Made by a program: the position numbers and the translations under genes | Shown: positions 180-24,084 of the stretch, piece after piece | Numbering within the stretch: position 1 is the stretch's first letter | Layout: every line of letters starts with the position of its first letter | Notes under the pieces: model-generated | What the model saw: the letters and a program-made list of their open reading frames with translations, nothing else | The model's database searches: none | What the model was told of the DNA's origin: nothing | IMG/VR virus record: IMGVR_UViG_3300027791_000130 | Location: 1-24,276 of that record | DNA length: 24,276 bases | Strand: one strand, 5' to 3' | Source of the DNA: a virus

Positions 180-583
180 AATAAAAACACTTCCTGTTCT
201 TCTATATTGTCCATACTTTTAATTTCAAATCCTAGTCTTTCGTTAAACTTAACATATCGTTTACTACAACAAGACCAATTTGTTTTATATTTTATATTTT
301 TTTCTAACCATCTACCTAGTCTTATACCTACACCTAATTTAGATGATATTAAAAATCCATCATACATTTCATCACCTTGTAAATTATACCAATAGATACC
401 ATTTAACTTATCATCAAAATGACCTAACCATTTACCACCCTTATAAAACTTCTTTAACCAAGGCCAGTTTTTTAAAGCAAGTAGATGTCTTTTCCAATAA
501 TAAAAATCTTTATGCCAATTATCTTTATGTTCTTGTTTAGACGCAAAATCTAATGCTTCTGTTTCTGCAATATGTTTAATCAT
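161..583 (-). CDS. GNAT-like N-acetyltransferase (putative)
   Basis: A 140-residue protein. The C-terminal half resembles the GNAT fold: GVGIRLGRWLEKN at about residues 84-96 sits where the acetyl-CoA pyrophosphate loop and following helix would be, and KRYVKFNERLGFE at about 108-120 matches the late GNAT segment where a Tyr/Phe-x-x-x-GF motif is common. The N-terminal half is rich in Trp, Lys and Tyr and I recognise nothing in it. GNAT enzymes transfer an acyl group from acyl-CoA to an amine. Here the next gene is an aminotransferase, so acetylation of an amino group made by that enzyme is a plausible pairing (inference). It starts 8 bases inside the end of the oxygenase-like gene, suggesting translational coupling. 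The pyrophosphate loop is not the textbook Q/RxxGxG/A, so the call is moderate. Confidence 0.5.
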   Translation of the reverse strand: MIKHIAETEALDFASKQEHKDNWHKDFYYWKRHLLALKNWPWLKKFYKGGKWLGHFDDKLNGIYWYNLQGDEMYDGFLISSKLGVGIRLGRWLEKNIKYKTNWSCCSKRYVKFNERLGFEIKSMDNIEEQEVFLLCRKKY

Positions 584-1019
584 TTAAATTACCTATCAAG
601 TGTATTCTATCTTTCCAAGAAGCATTAACAGCAGTATGTTTTTTACTTGTATCAACTATACAGTAGTTACCATCAGCAGAATATCTTATAAGTTTATCCT
701 CAACTATAAAAAAACAATTTTCATTTGTGATAATAGGTATATGAAATCTTTTACCTTGATCTTTATGGTAGGAATAACAAGTTTTGCTTTTTAAATTCAT
801 CAATCTAACTCTATATAAGTTATGTTCTTTTATAATAGAGTTGATGTAAGGTATATCAAATAAAGGATATGTAAATTCTACTTCTTTTTTAGGCAAATCT
901 CTAGCAGAGTTTATACCAGCAAATGGATCTTTTATAGTTTCTGTACCTTGAAGACAAATTTGTGTGTCCCATTTAGGTAAAGTCTTAATCTCATTTTTTA
1001 TTTTATTCAAATCATACAT
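576..1019 (-). CDS. Aspartyl/asparaginyl beta-hydroxylase-like 2OG-Fe(II) oxygenase
   Basis: A 147-residue protein with the metal-site layout of the cupin-type 2-oxoglutarate/Fe(II) oxygenases. H85-K-D87 gives the HxD pair, R91 and H93 follow in a strand, H128 in KKHTAVN would be the distal iron ligand, and R138 in DRIHLIGNL is placed to bind the 2-oxoglutarate carboxylate. This order is typical of Asp/Asn beta-hydroxylase-like proteins, which are common in marine phages. The family hydroxylates peptide side chains or small molecules. The protein is short but seems to contain the whole core. It overlaps the kinase-like gene upstream by 13 bases and the GNAT-like gene downstream by 8, so it belongs to the same leftward operon. 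The substrate is unknown. A residue-level alignment would be needed to confirm H128 as the third ligand. Confidence 0.65.
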   Translation of the reverse strand: MYDLNKIKNEIKTLPKWDTQICLQGTETIKDPFAGINSARDLPKKEVEFTYPLFDIPYINSIIKEHNLYRVRLMNLKSKTCYSYHKDQGKRFHIPIITNENCFFIVEDKLIRYSADGNYCIVDTSKKHTAVNASWKDRIHLIGNLND

Positions 1020-1441
1020 TTTAATTTTTTAACCAATTCAGTATCTATTTTAGATAACCATTTTTCATAACTAAATATTTCATAGTCTTTATATTTATCC
1101 GTTCTAAACCTCGCCCATTTCCAATCAAACGCAACTAATTGATTGCCATTCATTGTCATATTACTTAAAGAACCATTAAGTTTAAATACATTTTTCTCTT
1201 TAAAAAATTTATACATTTCTAAAGTCTGATCTGCTAAATCTTTAGGTCTTGTTTTATTTTTAATTAAATCTGGTCCATAGTATCTAGTGATAACATAGTT
1301 ATTGCCAACCTCTATCAATTCAGGTACCCATTTACTCTTTAGATAGTTTAACCAAAAGACTTCATTTTTTAAAAAAGCAAAGTTATCTTCACCTTTATAA
1401 TCAAAAGTTTTTTTCATAGTATTACCAATTATCTCATTCAT
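1007..1441 (-). CDS. Kinase-fold (APH/choline-kinase-like) protein with degenerate catalytic loop
   Basis: A 144-residue protein resembling the aminoglycoside-phosphotransferase/kinase fold in reduced form. An alpha-C-like segment (KNEVFWLNYL, residues 25-34) is followed by VPELIEV and the hinge-like VITRYYGPDL (50-59). The segment LNGSLSNMTMNGNQLVAFDWKWA (88-110, here given by its ends) corresponds to the catalytic loop and the Mg-binding Asp (D106-W107). The canonical HGDxxxxN is replaced by NGSxxN, so the catalytic Asp appears to be Ser and the loop is shorter. It may therefore be an inactive or altered kinase. The start at 1441 is supported by AGGAG at 1448-1452, six bases upstream. It overlaps the SPASM-domain gene before it by 8 bases. 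The fold call is moderate; inactivity is inference from the motif. Confidence 0.55.
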   Translation of the reverse strand: MNEIIGNTMKKTFDYKGEDNFAFLKNEVFWLNYLKSKWVPELIEVGNNYVITRYYGPDLIKNKTRPKDLADQTLEMYKFFKEKNVFKLNGSLSNMTMNGNQLVAFDWKWARFRTDKYKDYEIFSYEKWLSKIDTELVKKLKCMI

Positions 1442-1736
1442 TTACTACTCCTTTAAATACCTGATCTGTTCCACAATACCTTTTGCATACATCTGGTGCT
1501 TTATCATTATCTGTTGTTATAGATTTTTTAAAGTCTAACCATTCGTCTGATAAAAGTATTTCATCTATACTATCCACTTTATCTAAATGTAAATGTGGTC
1601 TAAACAATTTATATAACTCTTTATCGGATTTAGGAGTTATTGTATCACACCAACAACAAGGCAATAAAAAACCTTTTGCTGATGTAGCATAGTCTTTACT
1701 TTGTTTACCCTTTTCACACTTTGGATCTATTTTCAT
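1434..1736 (-). CDS. SPASM/twitch-type iron-sulfur domain, separate reading frame after radical SAM gene
   Basis: A 100-residue reading frame from the ATG at 1736; a TTG at 1751 would add five residues. Cysteines lie at C7, the cluster CC-W-C at 27-30, and a C-terminal pair C84 and C88 in VCKRYC. KIDPKC, a GFLLPCCWC turn and a later CxxxC are the pattern of the auxiliary-cluster SPASM/twitch domain that normally forms the C-terminus of radical SAM maturases and epimerases. Here it overlaps the end of the radical SAM gene by 23 bases in the +1 frame. The two are probably halves of what is one protein in relatives. Either they are translated separately and associate, or frameshifting joins them, or one base is wrong in the T-run at 1741-1744. 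The upstream ribosome site is weak (AAGG two bases from the ATG), which favours coupling or frameshifting. Confidence 0.6.
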   Translation of the reverse strand: MKIDPKCEKGKQSKDYATSAKGFLLPCCWCDTITPKSDKELYKLFRPHLHLDKVDSIDEILLSDEWLDFKKSITTDNDKAPDVCKRYCGTDQVFKGVVNE

Positions 1737-2334
1737 AACCTTTTCTTTCAATATAATAATCTTTATTTGTAGGCATTAATGGGTCGTCTTCCCAAAACCT
1801 AGAAGACTTTTGTAACTCTAATATTAAGTTATTATCTTTCGCTAGTTTTTTTGCCTCATCTATATTATTTTCATTGTAATTAAATATTAAGTATTGCCAT
1901 TTAACTCTTTTTACTATTTTAGCAGCTATACACGCCATTTTAAATAGATGTTCGCCATCTTGGTTTATTCTATACTTATGACTATCTTTTGGTAGACCAT
2001 CTATACCAAATGTCCAGTAAGCATTTATGTTTGCTTCAAATGCCTTTTTATACCATTCTTCTTTTTTATGAGAGGCGGCTGTGTGTACAGTAACCTTTTT
2101 GTCTTTACACAGTTTTAAAAAATCTATAAATTTTGGATGAAATATAGGGTCTGATATCTGACCACAAAATGTTATTTCTTCAAAGAAATTTAATATCTTT
2201 TTAAAATTATCTATACTCATATCTTCACCTGGTACTCTTACACCTCTAGCGGCAAAGATAGCTCTGTTACATCTTTGACATTGTAAAGTACATCTATGTG
2301 TTATATCTAAATTTATTTTAGGAAATCTGGCCAT
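1714..2334 (-). CDS. Radical SAM protein, catalytic domain
   Basis: A 206-residue protein with the radical SAM cluster motif C15-TLQ-C19-QR-C22 (CxxxCxxC), preceded by NLDITHRC as is usual. The second-strand motif, normally GGEP, reads FCGQISDPIFHP, as in several radical SAM groups that use a GQ-x-x-DP variant. These enzymes bind a [4Fe-4S] cluster and SAM and start radical chemistry on peptides, sugars or nucleosides. I chose the ATG at 2334 because GGAG lies six bases upstream of it; an ATG at 2346 in the same frame would place that ribosome site inside the coding sequence. It overlaps the preceding radical SAM gene by 22 bases. The protein stops before its expected C-terminal SPASM domain, which continues in another frame at 1434-1736. 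Confidence 0.8.
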   Translation of the reverse strand: MARFPKINLDITHRCTLQCQRCNRAIFAARGVRVPGEDMSIDNFKKILNFFEEITFCGQISDPIFHPKFIDFLKLCKDKKVTVHTAASHKKEEWYKKAFEANINAYWTFGIDGLPKDSHKYRINQDGEHLFKMACIAAKIVKRVKWQYLIFNYNENNIDEAKKLAKDNNLILELQKSSRFWEDDPLMPTNKDYYIERKGYENRSKV

Positions 2335-3473
2335 AATGTTCTCCAATCAAAGTTTCTATTTTTAGATAGCTTGTCCATATAATCATATGCTGTTTGTAAT
2401 TTAGTTGTATCACCTTCTAATACTAATTCTGTTTTTACCAATTGAAATTTACTAAGACCTCTTTTATCATATAAAGGTACATCTAATTGTTTTAATAATT
2501 TTTGTTTTACATCAACTGGCAGATGTTTAATAGATAGAAAATCAGGTGTTGTAACTATACTATTAAAATTCACATTAGCACCAAATTTATGTCTATAATA
2601 ATTATTAATATCAATTAAATCAAAAACATTTAATATAGATATAGTACAACTTATATTGGCATTAAAACCAGAGTCTAGCATTTCTTTTAAATTTTTTTCA
2701 AATTGTTCAACATCAATAGGGTATCTTATCCACGATAATTTTTTTTCAAAGTGGTCACAAGATACTCCCCAATAAACACTTTTAAATTTATCTTCTATAT
2801 CATAAACAGAATGATTTTTATATTTTAATTCTGTTAAGTTTGTGTCATAAACTAATTTAATATTTTTTGCGTGTTCTTCAGGTATTCTATCAATTAATTT
2901 CCAATGATTAGGTAATTGTAAAGGTTCGCCACCTGTGATATGAATGATATTAACTTTTTCAATATTATCTAATATATCTTCTACTATCAATTCATATTCT
3001 TTGTGCTTAACTTGTTCAAATTTACTAGATGAAAAGAAATCCCATCCTTTAGGATAAAGTTTATTCATTTCATTTCTTCTTGTAGATGAATTATATGGTA
3101 TACACATATAACAACTTAAATTACAATAACTACCGTTTATTCTTAATTTTAAATTTACCTTGTCAATATAGGTCGGCAAGTCTTTTGAATATTGTCTTAA
3201 TTTTCTTTGTCTGAAAGATTCGCCCATAGGATTGACCTCCTCTTGTTTATAGCAGGTAGCACATTCTGGTAGTTTTGCACCACTTAATATCTTATCTCTT
3301 TTCTCTTCCATTTCTGGAGAGTTAAAGTATTCAAATGGTTTGTGTGTTTGTGATTTGTATTTCTTTGAGGTTTCAGTTGACTTTGCGTGGCAACATAAAC
3401 GATATTCGCCTGAACTATCAGCATATATCTCATTAAAAACCAAAGGGCAATAACTTCCATTATCTTTCATCAT
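2313..3473 (-). CDS. Radical SAM protein with N-terminal cysteine-rich (twitch/SPASM-like) domain
   Basis: A 386-residue protein and the first gene of the leftward operon. The N-terminus has C9, C27-C28 and C71-x-x-C74, in the contexts CPLVFNEIYAD, YRLCCHA and CATCY, which looks like a SPASM/twitch auxiliary-cluster domain placed before the catalytic core. The radical SAM motif follows as C117-NLS-C121-YM-C124, and HITGGEPL at 178-185 supplies the GGEP SAM-binding strand. This order, with an auxiliary domain first, recurs in marine phage radical SAM proteins (recollection). The reaction is unknown. Start choice: ATG at 3473, followed at once by a second ATG at 3470; I see no clear Shine-Dalgarno. 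The 32-base gap to the divergent operon carries promoter-like boxes. Pairing with a second radical SAM enzyme suggests two radical steps in one pathway (inference). Confidence 0.82.
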   Translation of the reverse strand: MMKDNGSYCPLVFNEIYADSSGEYRLCCHAKSTETSKKYKSQTHKPFEYFNSPEMEEKRDKILSGAKLPECATCYKQEEVNPMGESFRQRKLRQYSKDLPTYIDKVNLKLRINGSYCNLSCYMCIPYNSSTRRNEMNKLYPKGWDFFSSSKFEQVKHKEYELIVEDILDNIEKVNIIHITGGEPLQLPNHWKLIDRIPEEHAKNIKLVYDTNLTELKYKNHSVYDIEDKFKSVYWGVSCDHFEKKLSWIRYPIDVEQFEKNLKEMLDSGFNANISCTISILNVFDLIDINNYYRHKFGANVNFNSIVTTPDFLSIKHLPVDVKQKLLKQLDVPLYDKRGLSKFQLVKTELVLEGDTTKLQTAYDYMDKLSKNRNFDWRTLWPDFLK

Positions 3474-3492: not shown

Positions 3493-3500
3493 TATAAATA
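3493..3500 (+). promoter_or_regulatory. T4-type late promoter box TATAAATA, plus-strand operon
   Basis: An exact TATAAATA lies in the 32-base gap between the divergent operons, five bases before the ATG at 3506. In T4, late transcription starts several bases downstream of this box, read by the gp55 sigma factor with the sliding clamp. A start there would give a message with almost no leader for the 3506 ATG, or a leader of about 15 bases for the in-frame ATG at 3521. Confidence 0.55.
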
Positions 3501-3505
3501 TAGTT

Positions 3506-4078
3506 ATGATTGATTATAGTATGTTGAAAGCGATATCCAAAATTAGTGATGACAAAAAGGTCAAGTCCATTGTTAATTCCCTAAATCCTAACCAAGAGAT
3601 TAGTAAGAATTGGTTGATAACAGAATCAATTAATTACTTTCAAATGTTTGAGAAACCAAAATTCTTGGTGGCAGCAGGATGGTATGGTAATCTAGCAAAC
3701 AAGTTGTTAGATTACGGAGAAGTATTATCGTTTGATAAAGATATAAATTGTGCTATAATAGGTAGAAAATTATATCCAAAAATTAAATTTAAAACTTATG
3801 ATGTGATTGATTATCGTAGTGTAAAAAAGTATGATGTGATTATCTGCACCTCTTGTGAACACATAAAACAAAATGTTTTAAATGATTTTATAAGTAGAAG
3901 AAGAAAAGATGATTCCATCGTAATTCTACAATCAAACAACTATACATCTTTGCCTGAACATATTAATTGCGTTAAAGATGAAAACGAGTTAGCAGATAAA
4001 ACAAAATTAAAAATGATACATTACAAAGGTAGTTTACAATGTGATGGTTTCAAAAGATTTATGGTTATAGGTGCTTAA
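3506..4078 (+). CDS. Class I SAM-dependent methyltransferase-like protein
   Basis: A 190-residue protein with a recognisable Rossmann methyltransferase core. KFLVAAGWYG at 52-61 is the glycine-containing motif I loop, LSFDKD around 74-79 gives the acidic residue at the end of strand 2 that binds the SAM ribose, TYDVIDY follows at 97-103, and YDVIICTSCEHI at 109-120 is the motif IV region. The AGWYG loop differs from the usual GxGxG but occurs in small phage methyltransferase-like proteins. It is the first gene of the plus-strand operon and its stop shares one base with the next start (TAATG at 4076-4080). The annotated start at 3506 has no visible ribosome site; an ATG at 3521 is an alternative. 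Methyl acceptor unknown; neighbours suggest a sugar or nucleoside intermediate (inference). Confidence 0.65.
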   Translation: MIDYSMLKAISKISDDKKVKSIVNSLNPNQEISKNWLITESINYFQMFEKPKFLVAAGWYGNLANKLLDYGEVLSFDKDINCAIIGRKLYPKIKFKTYDVIDYRSVKKYDVIICTSCEHIKQNVLNDFISRRRKDDSIVILQSNNYTSLPEHINCVKDENELADKTKLKMIHYKGSLQCDGFKRFMVIGA

Positions 4079-4863
4079 TGATTAAAATTTGTACAGTATA
4101 TTTTGAAGGTAAATATAGACCTGACTATGTAACAAAATTATATCGTAGTTTAAAAAGAAACTGTAAAGTGCCATTTGAGTTTATTTGTTTATCAGATACG
4201 AAAGATGTAGAAGCAGATAAAGTAATTATGTTACCTAAGTGGTCAGATATTAAAATTCATTGGCATAAATTAAAATTTTTTAGTCCTTTATTTGGCAATC
4301 AACAACCAGGTGATGATATTATTATAATGGACATTGACCAGATAGTTGTAGGTGATGTAACTAAAATGATTAACTGGCCTGTTGAAGAAAATGAAATAAT
4401 AACTTATAGAAAATGGTGGAAAAAAGGTGATCCAAATTCAGGCAATACAGTAAGATTAAATGGTGGTTGGTATAAATTTAAATCAGGCAGTTTAAAGTTT
4501 GTATGGGACGAGTTTAGTTTTTCAGAAAAAAGTAGAAATAAATGGCAATTACATTATTATAACAATGGTACTGTTCACTACAAATATTATGGAGAACAAA
4601 ACTATGTAGAAGATTGCTGTATAAGAAATAATGTAAAAATTACACATATGCCTGGGGAATGGGTATGTAAAATAAATAGTGAAGATGAAAGAAATAGATA
4701 TAATCAAATGCAATATATGAAATTATTTAATAAAGATTATATGATTTTAGATGAACCACATCCTGATATTAAAATGGTACACTTTGCAGGTGCTGAACCT
4801 GAGGATACAATACACGATTATACAGACAAGTTTGGTTGGATAAAAAAAAATTGGTATGATTGA
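4078..4863 (+). CDS. GT-A-type glycosyltransferase
   Basis: A 261-residue protein. IKICTVYFEGKYRPDYV at the N-terminus is the first strand of a nucleotide-sugar-binding fold, and IIIMDIDQIVVGD at 81-93 carries the DxD metal-binding motif (D85-I-D87) on the expected strand. Later LNGGWYKFKSG and KMVHFAGAEP segments resemble the acceptor side and the C-terminal histidine of glycosyltransferase families with a GT8-like layout. It probably transfers a sugar from a nucleotide-sugar donor in the cytoplasm; there is no signal peptide or membrane segment. It begins on the last base of the methyltransferase-like gene and ends 8 bases inside the first QueC-like gene. A shorter paralogue-like glycosyltransferase closes the same operon. 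The family is fairly clear; donor and acceptor cannot be read. Confidence 0.7.
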   Translation: MIKICTVYFEGKYRPDYVTKLYRSLKRNCKVPFEFICLSDTKDVEADKVIMLPKWSDIKIHWHKLKFFSPLFGNQQPGDDIIIMDIDQIVVGDVTKMINWPVEENEIITYRKWWKKGDPNSGNTVRLNGGWYKFKSGSLKFVWDEFSFSEKSRNKWQLHYYNNGTVHYKYYGEQNYVEDCCIRNNVKITHMPGEWVCKINSEDERNRYNQMQYMKLFNKDYMILDEPHPDIKMVHFAGAEPEDTIHDYTDKFGWIKKNWYD

Positions 4864-5494
4864 AGATACAGACAAGATAAGTATTAGTATTTCTGGTGGA
4901 TTAGATTCATCATTATTGACCTATTTGTTGTGTAAAGAAATATCAGACAATAATAAAAATACAAAGGTATATCCTCTACACGGTATAGACAACACAAGAC
5001 CTACATCACCAGAAAATATACAGAATATAATTAACTTTTTAAGAACATCTTTTCCAAATGTTGAAATAAAAGATATGTTAACTTGGGATAACACTAAAGA
5101 TGGTAAGAAACTTAAAACTTATAAGGATGCTGTTGGTATACAAAAATGGTGTTTAGAAAAAGATATTAGATATGTTTATCAAGGTAGAACATCAAATCCA
5201 CCAAAAGATGTATTAGATAATTTTGGCGGGTTTTATCAAAAAGAAAGATCACACGATAATAAAAAACCAACAAAAGAATTCATAAAAGAATTTAATGCTT
5301 ATTTAATTAGACCGTGGATTAATGTAGATAAAAAATATATCTATGAACAATATAAAAAATATAATTTATTAGATACACTAGAACCTCTTACTTGGAGTTG
5401 TATAGGTTTTGCTGAACAAACAAACTTTTTTACAAAACCTTGTAAAAAGTGTTATTGGTGTAAAGAGAAATATTGGGGATTTAACAAATACTAA
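4856..5494 (+). CDS. QueC-like PP-loop ATPase, copy 1
   Basis: A 212-residue protein. ISISGGLDSS places the PP-loop ATP-pyrophosphatase motif SGGxDS at residues 13-18. The C-terminus carries four cysteines, C182, C196, C199 and C202 (C-x13-C-x2-C-x2-C), with WSCIG before and WCKEKYWGF after. This is the zinc-site layout of QueC, the 7-cyano-7-deazaguanine synthase that adenylates a carboxylate and converts it to amide and then nitrile. Length is close to QueC (about 220-230). A QGRTSNPP segment at 109-116 is shared with the next gene. No other preQ0 gene is visible in the window, so the substrate may not be deazaguanine; a carboxylate-activating or amide-forming role on another molecule is possible (inference). 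It overlaps the glycosyltransferase before it by 8 bases and the next gene by one. Confidence 0.72.
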   Translation: MIEDTDKISISISGGLDSSLLTYLLCKEISDNNKNTKVYPLHGIDNTRPTSPENIQNIINFLRTSFPNVEIKDMLTWDNTKDGKKLKTYKDAVGIQKWCLEKDIRYVYQGRTSNPPKDVLDNFGGFYQKERSHDNKKPTKEFIKEFNAYLIRPWINVDKKYIYEQYKKYNLLDTLEPLTWSCIGFAEQTNFFTKPCKKCYWCKEKYWGFNKY

Positions 5495-6195
5495 TGATAG
5501 ATGTAAACAACGACATAGTTAAGAACTCTAAAAAAATATCAGTATCACTATCTGGTGGCGCTGACTCTGCTATATTATTTTACCACGCTTGTGATGTATT
5601 ACCAGATAGAACTTTTATACCTTGGTCAGGTTACGATACTAAAAGACCTGATAGTATTCTTTATGCAATGGAAGTTTATCAGTTTGTAAAAAATAGTTAT
5701 CCTAATGTAAATATTCTACCTCATCATACATTTAAATACACAACAGGAAAAGGCAAATTTCAAAATACTAAAAACTGGAATTGGAAACTAGACCCTAAAA
5801 GTGTAGCACACCACGAAGCTGAATATGAACTTTGGAAAAAACATAAATTTGATTTAACATTAAATGGTATGACTTCTAATCCTCCTGAAGACGCAATCAA
5901 AAAATTTAAAATGGACATTGACACAGGTCACGGAATTATAGAACCTAGAAGACATAGAGATAGACCAAAATGGTTATTAGATGGTTTTAGGCCTTTGTAT
6001 TTACCTTTTGTACAAGAAGATAAAAGTTATGTAAAAATGATGTACGAAAAATATGGTGTATTAGATACTTTATTTCCTTTGACGGCAAGTTGTATTGGGT
6101 TTCCAGATGAAACAGATAATGGTAAAAAACCTTGTAGAAATTGTGTGTGGTGTAAAGAGAGATTGTGGGCATTTGGAGAGGAACATTTACAATGA
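5494..6195 (+). CDS. QueC-like PP-loop ATPase, copy 2
   Basis: A 233-residue protein, a diverged paralogue of the preceding gene. The PP-loop motif SGGADS is at residues 20-25, the shared segment NGMTSNPP at 124-131, and the cysteines at C200, C214, C217 and C220 repeat the same C-x13-C-x2-C-x2-C spacing. DTLFPLTASCIGFP parallels DTLEPLTWSCIGF in copy 1. The middle third is longer and has extra charged residues (RRHRDRPKW near 152-160). Both ATP-binding and zinc residues look intact in both copies, so neither is an obvious decayed duplicate. They may form a heterodimer or act on successive substrates (inference). The start overlaps the previous stop by one base (TAATG) and its own stop overlaps the next start as ATGA. 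Confidence 0.72.
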   Translation: MIDVNNDIVKNSKKISVSLSGGADSAILFYHACDVLPDRTFIPWSGYDTKRPDSILYAMEVYQFVKNSYPNVNILPHHTFKYTTGKGKFQNTKNWNWKLDPKSVAHHEAEYELWKKHKFDLTLNGMTSNPPEDAIKKFKMDIDTGHGIIEPRRHRDRPKWLLDGFRPLYLPFVQEDKSYVKMMYEKYGVLDTLFPLTASCIGFPDETDNGKKPCRNCVWCKERLWAFGEEHLQ

Positions 6196-6764
6196 GATTA
6201 ATAGCAGTAAACACAGGTATTAAATTTGGCGAATGGTATGTAGATAATTTAAAACATATGATTGATAATTACTCTGGTATAAAATATGATAGTTTTGAAG
6301 TAATTAGAGATGAAAACTACGATAGTTGGTTTAATAAACTTCAAATGTTTGACAGGTTTAGAGATGGTCAAAATTTATATTTTGATTTAGATTTAGTTAT
6401 AAAAGGACCTTTGCCTAATTTATTAAGAAAAGATTTTACATTATTACACGCCTGGTGGAGAACACCAGATCATACACCTTTGAACTCTTCCGTTATTTCT
6501 TGGCAAGGTGACCAATCTCACATATATAAAAAATTTATAGAAGACCCAGAATATTATATGTTAAAATATAATCGTGGTATAGATCAGTTTCTATATGAGA
6601 ATATTGAGTATAAGACTTATGATAAAGTCTGTTATTCTATACGAGGTAAGGAATATGATAAAGAAGATACTGATTACAATATCTGTTTATTTAATCAAAG
6701 AAAAATATTAATGGAAGATGGTTGGGACGGTTGGTGGAAAAAATATTTTATTTCAACTTCATAA
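6192..6764 (+). CDS. Short GT-A-type glycosyltransferase
   Basis: A 190-residue protein from the ATG at 6192. That start is preferred over an in-frame ATG at 6165 because GGAGAGGA lies about ten bases upstream and the ATGA overlap with the preceding stop is typical for this operon. LIAVNTGIKFGEWYVDNL forms the first strand and helix, and YFDLDLVIKGPL at 63-74 holds the DxD motif (D65-L-D67) followed by the K/G-P pattern seen in small phage glycosyltransferases. Later segments ISWQGD and NRGIDQFLYE may bind the acceptor. At under 200 residues it is near the lower limit for a GT-A enzyme. It ends the plus-strand operon and runs 17 bases into the end of the convergent gene. Function as a sugar transferase is likely; the substrate is unknown. 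Confidence 0.65.
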   Translation: MRLIAVNTGIKFGEWYVDNLKHMIDNYSGIKYDSFEVIRDENYDSWFNKLQMFDRFRDGQNLYFDLDLVIKGPLPNLLRKDFTLLHAWWRTPDHTPLNSSVISWQGDQSHIYKKFIEDPEYYMLKYNRGIDQFLYENIEYKTYDKVCYSIRGKEYDKEDTDYNICLFNQRKILMEDGWDGWWKKYFISTS

Positions 6765-7224: not shown

Positions 7225-7951
7225 AATTTTCCTTTAAGTAATCTAGTAAGTTAATCATAGGAGACCAACCTAATTTTTTTAATGTGCCTGGGTTTGCTGT
7301 ATTATCTTTTCTTTCAAATATTGTTCCCACTCTCTTATCTTTTATATCTATATTTAGATGTGAAAAAATATCAGGTAAAGTATTTGATATTCCTGTTCCA
7401 ACATCAACAACTTTTAGTTTTTCAACTTTGTGAACTATCAAACAACCTATTGCTGTTAATAAATCATCTATGTGTATAAAATCTCTAATATGATCTATAT
7501 TAATGTAAGATACATCATCTCTTAATATTTTTGGTATTAACATTTGTTCTCTAGCGCCTGGACCATAAACAGTTGTAAATCTCATACCTAAAGCGTTATG
7601 AGGTGCAATCTGTTCCATATAAAACTTACTCATTGCATATGGATTTCTCCAAGGTTCTTTTGCAGTAGATGAACTAGCGTATAAAATTTTAGGACCTTTA
7701 TCAAATTGTTTGAATACTCTATAACTTCCTACAACATTATTAGTCCAATATTCTGTGGGATTATCTAAACTATCTCTAACACCTGAAAGACCTGCAAGAT
7801 GTATAACTAAATCTACATCATAGTCTAAATTGCAAGTAATTAAATTATTACCTGTTTTCTTATCTAAACATATGAGATTGTGTTTGTCTTTTAAAAAAGA
7901 CTGAATGTGTTGACCAATAAAGCCTTCACTACCTGTTAATAATATATTCAT
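7214..7951 (-). CDS. NAD-dependent sugar epimerase/dehydratase (extended SDR family)
   Basis: A 245-residue protein. The N-terminus shows the Rossmann NAD(P) motif GSEGFIG (G7-x2-G10-x2-G13), then HLAGLSGVRDS near 51-61. The catalytic set is present: Ser93-95 in YASSST and Y105-x3-K109 in NPYAMSK. RFTTVYGPGAR and the later RDFIHIDDL are the usual substrate-side motifs of UDP-galactose 4-epimerase/GDP-fucose-type enzymes. These interconvert or dehydrate nucleotide sugars in the cytoplasm. The protein is shorter than the usual 310-340 residues, mainly because loops in the C-terminal substrate domain are compact. It would supply an activated sugar to the nearby glycosyltransferases (inference). 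A GATAAATA box lies just upstream. Confidence 0.82.
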   Translation of the reverse strand: MNILLTGSEGFIGQHIQSFLKDKHNLICLDKKTGNNLITCNLDYDVDLVIHLAGLSGVRDSLDNPTEYWTNNVVGSYRVFKQFDKGPKILYASSSTAKEPWRNPYAMSKFYMEQIAPHNALGMRFTTVYGPGAREQMLIPKILRDDVSYINIDHIRDFIHIDDLLTAIGCLIVHKVEKLKVVDVGTGISNTLPDIFSHLNIDIKDKRVGTIFERKDNTANPGTLKKLGWSPMINLLDYLKENYDN

Positions 7952-7961
7952 AATATAATTC

Positions 7962-7969
7962 TATTTATC
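7962..7969 (-). promoter_or_regulatory. Late-promoter-like box GATAAATA (variant) before epimerase gene
   Basis: The minus strand carries GATAAATA about ten bases before the epimerase ATG at 7951, overlapping the last base region of the upstream fibre-like gene. It is one base away from TATAAATA, the same variant as at 3482-3489. Position supports it; sequence alone is weak in AT-rich DNA. Confidence 0.35.
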
Positions 7970-8901
7970 TAACTTTTAAGTATCCTTAAATAGTATGTTT
8001 CAACAGTTTGCGCTGTACCATTTGGAAATTCTTGTGATCTATAATCATCACCAACTTGTCTTGTTTGATAATCACCTGATCCATTTAATACTGTATTTGC
8101 AATACCAGTACCTCTATTAGTACCTAATCCACTTGTTCCTAAATTGTAAGAAATTTTATAACCCTCTGCTGAAGATGTTGCAGTCTGTCTAACCCAACCT
8201 TGTAGTAAACTTTCAAATGTTGAACTTGTATAAGTTTGTAAATCATTATCTGATCTAATATGTAATGGTTGTGTATAAGAATTATTATTACCAGTTAATC
8301 TATGCAAGTAATAACTATTAACCGTAGTTGGATTATCTAAAGCGTGTGATCCAATTGTACCTGATGTATATGCTGAAATATCTGCTTTAGTATCTACAAA
8401 AATAGGAGTATTAGAAACTAAAGTACCACCTGCTAAAGATGAGTTACTATGTATTGTGTAAGTACCACCTTGTAAAGCATTCTGCGTACCTGCACTTAAT
8501 AAATCTATTGCAGGATGTAAAAAAGTATCTTTAACATCTTGCAAATTCATTGCTTGAATATTACCAGAGTTTGAAAAAACAGGAAAAGTTATTCCTGTAT
8601 CTGTCGTTGGAGTTGAACCTGTATTTGTACTTGAAATTTTATCATAAGATACAGTAATTGTTTGAGGTTCTTGTGTTGTTCCTTCGCCAGGAAATGATGT
8701 AGAACTATTTGAAACTGCACCAGCTTCTAATCTTGTATCAGTCATACCACCTAATGATCCACCTGAACCTACTACTGATAAAACTACGCTAGGACTTAAT
8801 GAGTATTGATAAACACTTTGGTTAACAATTTCTGTGACCATCGCTGTGGTCATTTCTTTTATGTTACCTGAATCTAAATATAGAGGTTTTCTGACAGCCA
8901 T
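7969..8901 (-). CDS. Virion structural / fibre-like protein, 310 residues
   Basis: A Ser/Thr/Gly-rich protein of 310 residues. The opening MAVRKPLYLDSGNIKEMTTAM followed by IYQYS-like VYQYSLSPSVVLSV resembles the N-terminus shared by a family of structural proteins in T4-like marine phages (recollection, not checked). The rest is low in charge, rich in short beta-prone segments and lacks cysteine, as expected for a fibre or neck appendage. It ends with YYLRILKS. GGAGAT lies seven bases before the start, a good ribosome site. It is the last gene of the structural series, 15 bases after the 251-residue fibre-like gene. It could form part of the tail or a baseplate appendage; the exact position in the particle cannot be read. 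Confidence 0.6.
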   Translation of the reverse strand: MAVRKPLYLDSGNIKEMTTAMVTEIVNQSVYQYSLSPSVVLSVVGSGGSLGGMTDTRLEAGAVSNSSTSFPGEGTTQEPQTITVSYDKISSTNTGSTPTTDTGITFPVFSNSGNIQAMNLQDVKDTFLHPAIDLLSAGTQNALQGGTYTIHSNSSLAGGTLVSNTPIFVDTKADISAYTSGTIGSHALDNPTTVNSYYLHRLTGNNNSYTQPLHIRSDNDLQTYTSSTFESLLQGWVRQTATSSAEGYKISYNLGTSGLGTNRGTGIANTVLNGSGDYQTRQVGDDYRSQEFPNGTAQTVETYYLRILKS

Positions 8902-8916
8902 TATATATCTCCATTT

Positions 8917-9672
8917 TTAGGTAGCCGATCCTACTATTCTTTTAACCTCTGATCCTGTAGAATCGTAAATTACTAGTGTTGATGTTGACGCAAATATTGA
9001 ACCTGTTGCGTAAGAAGTTGTATTAGTTAAGGCAACTATTCCGTCGGCGTCTGGAAGACTAATTGATCTAGTTGCAGTCGGGTCAGTTACAGTTAATTTT
9101 GTATCAAAAGAATTGTCTGTCGCACCTTCAAAAAATAAGTTTTTACTTAATCCCATAAAGATTGAAGAACCGAATACTGTAAATCCTGATGATGATTCAA
9201 TGTTATTTCCACCTGTTGGGTTAATTGTTGTAACCCCTGCTTTTAATCCATCTGAAATTTCAACTGTCGGAGAATTAGTTGAACTAATTTGATTTCCACT
9301 AATTTGTATTGTTCCTAATGTACTAATAGAACCTAATACAGTAAACGCATTTGGTATTTGTACATTATTTGGAAAAGAAAATGTAATAGTATCTGGTACT
9401 GTTACAACAGATTGTATTTGATTAGCAGTACCTAGTACAGTTAAGGTATCTCCACCACCAACAAGTTGAACAGTTGAGGTATCGTCAGCAATTGTAAAAC
9501 CAGAACTTGATGTTGCAATACTAATAGTTTCGTTCATAGCGTCAACTAAATTAGTTGCACTAATAGCTGCTGACAGATTTGCAATATCACCAAAATCTTG
9601 TTGTGATAAAGCATTAAATGTTGTTCTAAATAATTCTAGTGTATCTGTTTCTGCTATTGTTTTAAATGCCAT
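8917..9672 (-). CDS. Fibre-like virion structural protein, 251 residues
   Basis: A 251-residue protein low in charge and rich in Thr, Ser, Ile and Gly. The N-terminal part ETDTLELFRTTFNALSQQ, then GDIANL and LVDAMNE, is a short helical pattern found at the start of many marine T4-like fibre proteins, thought to anchor them to the particle or trimerise them (recollection). The middle is made of repeated strands of the type TVLG-x-STLGTIQISGNQIS, as in beta-helical fibres, and TRSISLPDADGIVALT near 208-223 resembles fibre modules in other phages. It begins on the last bases of the coiled-coil gene (TAATG) and precedes the 310-residue fibre-like gene. Probably a receptor-binding or accessory fibre subunit (inference). 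Confidence 0.6.
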   Translation of the reverse strand: MAFKTIAETDTLELFRTTFNALSQQDFGDIANLSAAISATNLVDAMNETISIATSSSGFTIADDTSTVQLVGGGDTLTVLGTANQIQSVVTVPDTITFSFPNNVQIPNAFTVLGSISTLGTIQISGNQISSTNSPTVEISDGLKAGVTTINPTGGNNIESSSGFTVFGSSIFMGLSKNLFFEGATDNSFDTKLTVTDPTATRSISLPDADGIVALTNTTSYATGSIFASTSTLVIYDSTGSEVKRIVGSAT

Positions 9673-17521: not shown

Positions 17522-17529
17522 TATTTATA
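17522..17529 (-). promoter_or_regulatory. T4-type late promoter box TATAAATA before gp8
   Basis: An exact TATAAATA on the minus strand in the short gap before gp8, about 20 bases upstream of its ATG, with an AAGGA ribosome site between. The spacing suits a late transcript with a short leader covering gp8 and the large downstream structural genes. Confidence 0.7.
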
Positions 17530-19181: not shown

Positions 19182-19189
19182 TATTTATA
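19182..19189 (-). promoter_or_regulatory. T4-type late promoter box TATAAATA before gp10/cupredoxin gene
   Basis: An exact TATAAATA on the minus strand, 26 bases upstream of the ATG at 19156, in the 39-base gap after the gp7-like gene. AGGA sits between box and start. It implies that the gp10-type gene can be transcribed on its own late transcript. Confidence 0.7.
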
Positions 19190-24076: not shown

Positions 24077-24084
24077 TATTTATA
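24077..24084 (-). promoter_or_regulatory. T4-type late promoter box TATAAATA before gp25
   Basis: An exact TATAAATA on the minus strand in the 18-base gap between the PAAR gene and gp25. It lies eight bases before the gp25 ATG, so the message would have a very short leader carrying AAGAGAT. Confidence 0.65.

Follow-up and report, generated by a model that had tools for sequence, protein, structure and literature searches.

A tandem pair of genes in the 24-kb record of a marine bacterial virus analysed here (the window) encodes enzymes that are, judged on their sequences and a predicted structure, QueC-fold PP-loop proteins and not QueC itself. They belong to a large and distinct subfamily of QueC-fold enzymes, a deeply separate branch that is apparently undescribed; the fold is known and the subfamily is new. 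We give about an even chance to the reading that this subfamily activates a carboxylate other than a deazaguanine, forming an amide-type bond, in a pathway with radical-SAM enzymes and glycosyltransferases. The roles of the QueC fold have lately been extended past tRNA bases by Cap9 and QatC, and the family described here is a further branch. It turns up repeatedly in aquatic phages, has an active-site loop of its own and repeatedly has a radical-SAM partner. Its members are concrete targets for learning what large phage islands make, and they are a caution that genes labelled 'QueC' in surveys of viral auxiliary genes may be misnamed.

The gene pair and its island

A first-pass annotation of the DNA had described an intact tandem QueC-like pair at 4856-6195, widely diverged yet sharing SGGxDS, G-x-TSNPP and an identical C-x13-C-x2-C-x2-C, and this description was borne out in every part. 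Both open reading frames are intact and overlap at stop and start, the flanking genes overlapping them in the same way (Table 1); all three motifs are present in both, and the two proteins align over their full length at 33% identity (E=3e-36), far beyond chance. The first spacing of the Cys4 motif, x13, is common in the family and not fixed, being x10 in the second copy of a close relative, L021.

Table 1. Position of the gene pair, its neighbours and the promoter-like element in the window
Feature	Position	Strand	Remarks
Asp/Arg-hydroxylase-like dioxygenase (PF05118)	576..1019	-	6.7e-9; cluster 9
Small Cys-rich protein (cluster 23)	1434..1751	-	Follows radical-SAM 2 in relatives
Radical-SAM 2	1714..2346	-	ATG at 2334; same family fused to QueC-like domain in L101
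Twitch-domain radical-SAM (NF033640)	2313..3473	-	9e-80, above cut-off; divergent from operon
TATAAATA, T4-type late-promoter-like	3493..3500	+	5 bases before first ATG of operon
Methyltransferase-like gene	3506..4078	+	Operon gene 1; weak family matches (spermidine synthase model E=0.016)
Glycosyltransferase-like (phrog_1962)	4078..4863	+	E=1.7e-13; overlaps enzyme 1
QueC-fold PP-loop enzyme 1 (ORF 1)	4856..5494	+	212 aa; SGGLDS, GRTSNPP, C182-x13-C196-x2-C199-x2-C202
QueC-fold PP-loop enzyme 2 (ORF 2)	5494..6195	+	233 aa; SGGADS, GMTSNPP, Cys4 motif as enzyme 1
Second glycosyltransferase-like (phrog_1962)	6192..6764	+	E=4.3e-6; start overlaps enzyme 2 stop (ATGA)

The pair lies in a five-gene plus-strand operon (3506-6764) in the order methyltransferase-like gene, glycosyltransferase, enzyme 1, enzyme 2, glycosyltransferase, and every junction is touching or overlapping. 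The twitch-domain radical-SAM gene, divergent from this operon in the window, is a same-strand operon neighbour in the relatives L021 and L023, where the order on one strand is rSAM1-rSAM2-Cys-rich-GT-enzyme 1-enzyme 2-kinase-GT. The methyltransferase-like gene (cluster 15) recurs beside members of the QueC-like family, and the dioxygenase cluster also adjoins those members that lie beside a DNA polymerase.

T4-type late promoters are expected just before the starts of structural genes. Five exact matches to TATAAATA were found in the window, a count not above chance, and four of the five stand 5-25 bases before a same-strand gene start. Three minus-strand copies (17522-17529, 19182-19189 and 24077-24084) lie 8-25 bases before structural gene starts. 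The element in front of the operon suggests that these genes may be transcribed late in infection.

A pelagimyophage host-recognition island makes up the window, whose baseplate protein shares 65% identity with that of Pelagibacter phage Mosig EXVC030M. The matching island of this phage encodes radical-SAM-type proteins (annotated as MoaA-like), hydroxylases, a carbamoyltransferase and aminotransferases; no member of the QueC-like family was detected in that island by tblastn. The host recognition cluster of pelagimyophages lies between VrlC and gp14, is glycosyltransferase-rich, and carries radical-SAM cassettes as a variable feature (PMC7029224). The main text of the same paper makes no mention of QueC or queuosine. 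NF033640 twitch radical-SAM cassettes occur in T4-like marine phages and the window has one; no literature link between such cassettes and a QueC-fold enzyme was found.

A family outside QueC, Cap9 and QatC

The family was collected by scanning IMG/VR viral stretches with the degenerate motif PCxxCxWCKE, which succeeded where single-protein scans of viral contigs yielded no relatives. The scan matched 103 viral stretches, most of which encode complete proteins with SGGxDS, and grouping at 55% identity gave 39 viral lineages. A tblastn search with both open reading frames and four other members returned no matches among 50,697 phage records; the baseplate protein, used as a control, matched 2407 of these records, so the tool had worked. 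In GTDB genomes the family was found in contigs of metagenome-assembled genomes, some of them phage-looking (L105-L107), and on the chromosomes of Bdellovibrionia, where seven of 144 genomes gave strong matches.

In a tree of 77 proteins (53 family rows and 24 rows of QueC, Cap9-like and QatC proteins) the family was split from QueC, Cap9-like proteins and QatC with 100/100 support. The first-pass annotation had proposed a phylogeny with QueC as a check on its reading, and the family fell outside QueC. Matches of the window pair to QueC models lay below the curated cut-offs: 19.5 and 15.6 bits to the Pfam QueC model (cut-off 22), and 18.5 and 14.1 bits to TIGR00364 (cut-off 150). PF06508 matched 27 of 40 family members, mostly weakly.

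The best tree placed ORF 1 and ORF 2 in different subclades, and a local duplication of the window pair was not rejected by an AU test (p=0.18). Two or more family copies were present at about ten loci, several of them tandem. Full sets of catalytic motifs are kept in both copies in the window, in L021/L023 and in L096/L099, which argues that both paralogues are active, putatively as a complex or in successive steps.

Active-site motifs were counted in 48 family representatives and 11 reference QueC proteins. The SGGxDS P-loop was present in 48/48, the Cys4 motif in 47/48 by pattern (with a variable first spacing) and the Lys of a P-x4-D-K motif before Cys4 in 47/48. QueC (7-cyano-7-deazaguanine synthase) shares the fold, SGGxDS and a zinc motif, C(x)8CxxCxxC, the first spacing being 13 in the window pair. 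However, three substrate motifs of QueC are missing: VPxRN in 0/48 against 11/11 reference proteins, YxQxHxxE (counted as YxQ) in 1/48 against 11/11, and YPDC (counted as YxDC) in 0/48 against 10/11. In their place the family has a G-x-T-x-N-P-P loop and WWCxER; an HHalign comparison of the family with QueC (98% probability) aligned YPDC to the NPP of this loop. Replacement of Y131 or R99 of E. coli QueC by alanine abolishes activity (PMC13329287), and the motifs that hold these two residues are among those missing.

The nearest solved structure by both sequence and fold was Cap9 of type IV CBASS (PDB 9nto). It was the best match in a PDB profile search (E=1.2e-7; QueC 3bl5, 1e-3; TtuA and LarE also present) and in a Foldseek search with the predicted fold of enzyme 1 (2.7e-6; QueC, 6.9e-5), although TM-scores to Cap9 and QueC were modest, at 0.54-0.62. 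The AlphaFold2 model of enzyme 1 had a pLDDT of 95.5 and a pTM of 0.91; enzyme 2, folded without an alignment, gave a pLDDT of 33 and was left out of the fold comparison. Cap9 and the family share the PP-loop, the PF(x)4K region and a C-terminal Cys cluster, and enzyme 1, at 212 aa, is within the ~185-220 aa of this minimal QueC fold. PADLOC QueC model PDLC00911, which we take to represent the CBASS protein, matched 30 of 40 members.

This resemblance raises the alternative that the family works as Cap9 or QatC do, adenylating an acid and, in the manner of type IV CBASS, joining it to a partner protein at its N-terminus, perhaps with a counter-defence role. QatC also lacks the Y/D substrate motif, and its proposed target is a protein N-terminus (PMC13279940). 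Yet the deazaguanine-reading YxDCxxxF and Y/FxQ(x)5E of Cap9 are absent from the family. Cap9 adjoins a CD-NTase and has a partner with an N-terminal Gly, whereas neither a CD-NTase nor QatB was recognised among the annotated neighbours of the family, Met-Gly starts were not enriched beside it (8/331 against 14/449 in controls) and no partner with such a start was conserved. QatC differs further in its N- and C-terminal extensions, its length (~400 aa, against 212 and 233 aa for the window pair) and its partners qatA, qatB and qatD; the QatC model gave one weak match (0.027) in 40 members, and in the tree QatC branches with QueC, away from the family. Conjugation of the Cap9 or QatC kind is thus considered unlikely.

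NcsA and TtuA scored almost as well as Cap9 in Foldseek, ranking just below it, and TtuA and LarE appeared in the profile search, as would be expected if the family were PP-loop sulfurtransferases that thiolate a tRNA or a small molecule. Such enzymes carry an extra conserved Cys, for a catalytic 4Fe-4S cluster or as sacrificial sulfur. The only invariant Cys columns of the family are the four at the C-terminus (48/48), which match the QueC zinc site, and the next column reaches 15/48, making this identity highly improbable. Each of the QueC, Cap9, QatC and sulfurtransferase identities therefore fails a tested feature.

Genomic distribution of preQ0 genes

The first-pass annotation had seen no other preQ0 genes, which is true within the window; since this is a 24-kb record, a wider check was needed. 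Among 41 records QueD was found in two, GTP cyclohydrolase in eight and true QueE in six; PHROG 'QueE-like' matches scoring under ~45 bits, which are generic radical-SAM proteins, were excluded from this count. All positive records were among L036, L038, L039, L044, L059, L077, L006 and L075; GTP cyclohydrolase was present in the six records with true QueE and in G002 and G035. Thus the absence of queD, queE and folE extends to the window-like records, and some of these genes do occur in other lineages. The window's lineage, whose records are fragments, showed neither a complete preQ0 pathway nor a linked QueD or QueE. No DNA or tRNA transglycosylase was found in 17 records with PF01702, a result that says little because the model could miss a strongly diverged phage DpdA.

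It could be argued from the fold and the Cys4 site that these are diverged genuine preQ0 synthases, whose deazaguanine would go into phage DNA or host tRNA, and in the L036/L038/L059 lineage six large phages do carry true QueE and GTP cyclohydrolase, most of them without a canonical QueC. Against this stand the loss of the QueC substrate motifs, including those of Y131 and R99, and the separate clade. Moreover, family-bearing records of 105-167 kb (G006, G025, G027 and G030) contain no QueD, FolE or strong QueE match, and a Bdellovibrionia genome (G046) has a canonical QueC elsewhere (172 bits) besides its family member. Genuine preQ0 synthesis is most improbable. The first-pass view that these are not ordinary preQ0 enzymes is upheld by the 100/100 split and the motif loss, while its suggestion of a new deazapurine product is disfavoured because all 48 representatives lack YxD, the motif with which QueC and Cap9 read carboxydeazaguanine.

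Two further proteins were observed. G020 (L111:2020-3447 and 7632-9204) encodes a protein of 476 aa with the TGT-like motif 'GDSGGYQ', ~5 kb away from paired GTP cyclohydrolase and QueE genes; it matched no family model, and its relatives in Pseudomonas phages, PA5oct among them, are annotated as hypothetical. The G016 phage, which also has QueD, QueE and FolE, encodes a second QueC-like protein (L114:10094-10651; 186 aa, SGGVES) that is shorter and more diverged.

Radical-SAM neighbours and proposed function

A radical-SAM gene was located within three genes of the family member in 17/39 viral lineages, a proportion reached in one of 5000 within-locus permutations. DNA polymerase was the neighbour in 12/39, and no lineage had both contexts (0/39); one pathway therefore cannot explain the whole family, as these 12 lineages are without radical SAM. 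The putative substrate loop largely followed context. Nearly all members on the radical-SAM side, and most of those on chromosomes, had N-P with Arg; most of those on the polymerase side had Q-G-M-P with Leu. Exceptions include L012, L049, L052 and L015.

All seven family-bearing Bdellovibrionia genomes were among the 54/144 with a twitch radical SAM (hypergeometric 8e-4, relatedness ignored). At most of the loci examined the enzyme lay within a few kb of a twitch radical-SAM, radical-SAM 2, carbamoyltransferase or B12-type radical-SAM gene. Chromosomal loci L230, L231 and L235 hold clusters with many twitch radical-SAM copies, a B12-type radical SAM and a carbamoyltransferase, to which L235 adds an HMGL-like synthase and an aminotransferase; these look like uncharacterised biosynthetic clusters.

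Given the fold and the known chemistry of the superfamily, the likely reaction is activation of a carboxylate with release of AMP and formation of an amide-type bond. In the proposed mechanism SGGxDS would bind the pyrophosphate of ATP and the enzyme would adenylate a carboxylate; the activated group would then be attacked by ammonia or another amine. The predicted Cys4 zinc site and the preceding P-x4-D-K would shape the C-terminal portion of the active site. Carboxydeazaguanine would not be the substrate, because the YPDC loop by which QueC and Cap9 recognise it is replaced here by G-x-T-x-N-P-P and a mostly conserved Arg. Loss of the QueC recognition signatures, together with the radical-SAM and DNA polymerase neighbours, makes a different putative substrate probable. 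Activation of a carboxylate on a sugar or other metabolite, as raised on first pass, is a reasonable mechanism given the non-QueC clade, the motif loss and the glycosyltransferase, methyltransferase-like and radical-SAM context.

In the window's lineage the enzymes may act with the twitch radical-SAM, radical-SAM 2 and the glycosyltransferases of the hypervariable host-recognition island. The neighbouring genes suggest that the product is probably a built or amidated small molecule or sugar, attached to a surface glycan at a late stage of infection. A glutaminase partner, however, was not recognised, which counts against this reading. The same fold class and glycan setting would suit sugar amidotransferases of the WbpG/PseA type, which would amidinate an N-acetyl sugar of the O-antigen on the host surface and so block coinfection. 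These form one branch of the QueC superfamily, with the motifs SGGxDSxY, CxxC(x)6CxC and a YDC triad (PMC13329287). Those motifs do not fit the family alignment, a HisH/HisF-like ammonia-supplying partner was not recognised in the operons examined, and a WbpG/PseA-type role appears decidedly unlikely. Beyond the non-deazaguanine carboxylate activation preferred here, we would suggest only tentatively that the family is a new ATP-dependent bond-forming class with a new kind of substrate, partnering twitch radical-SAM enzymes in natural-product-like phage clusters shared with predatory bacteria, the window paralogues being paired.

The association with radical-SAM 2 includes a natural fusion, a single 481-aa open reading frame (L101:1438-2880, one contig) in which a QueC-like domain and radical-SAM 2 form one protein. 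Partnership is not obligatory, because the enzyme is carried by 7/81 phage loci with radical-SAM 2, and radical-SAM 2 was rejected as a specific marker of the enzyme. At L094:3851-8516 radical-SAM 2 and small Cys-rich genes alternate in an array, with one QueC-like gene among them.
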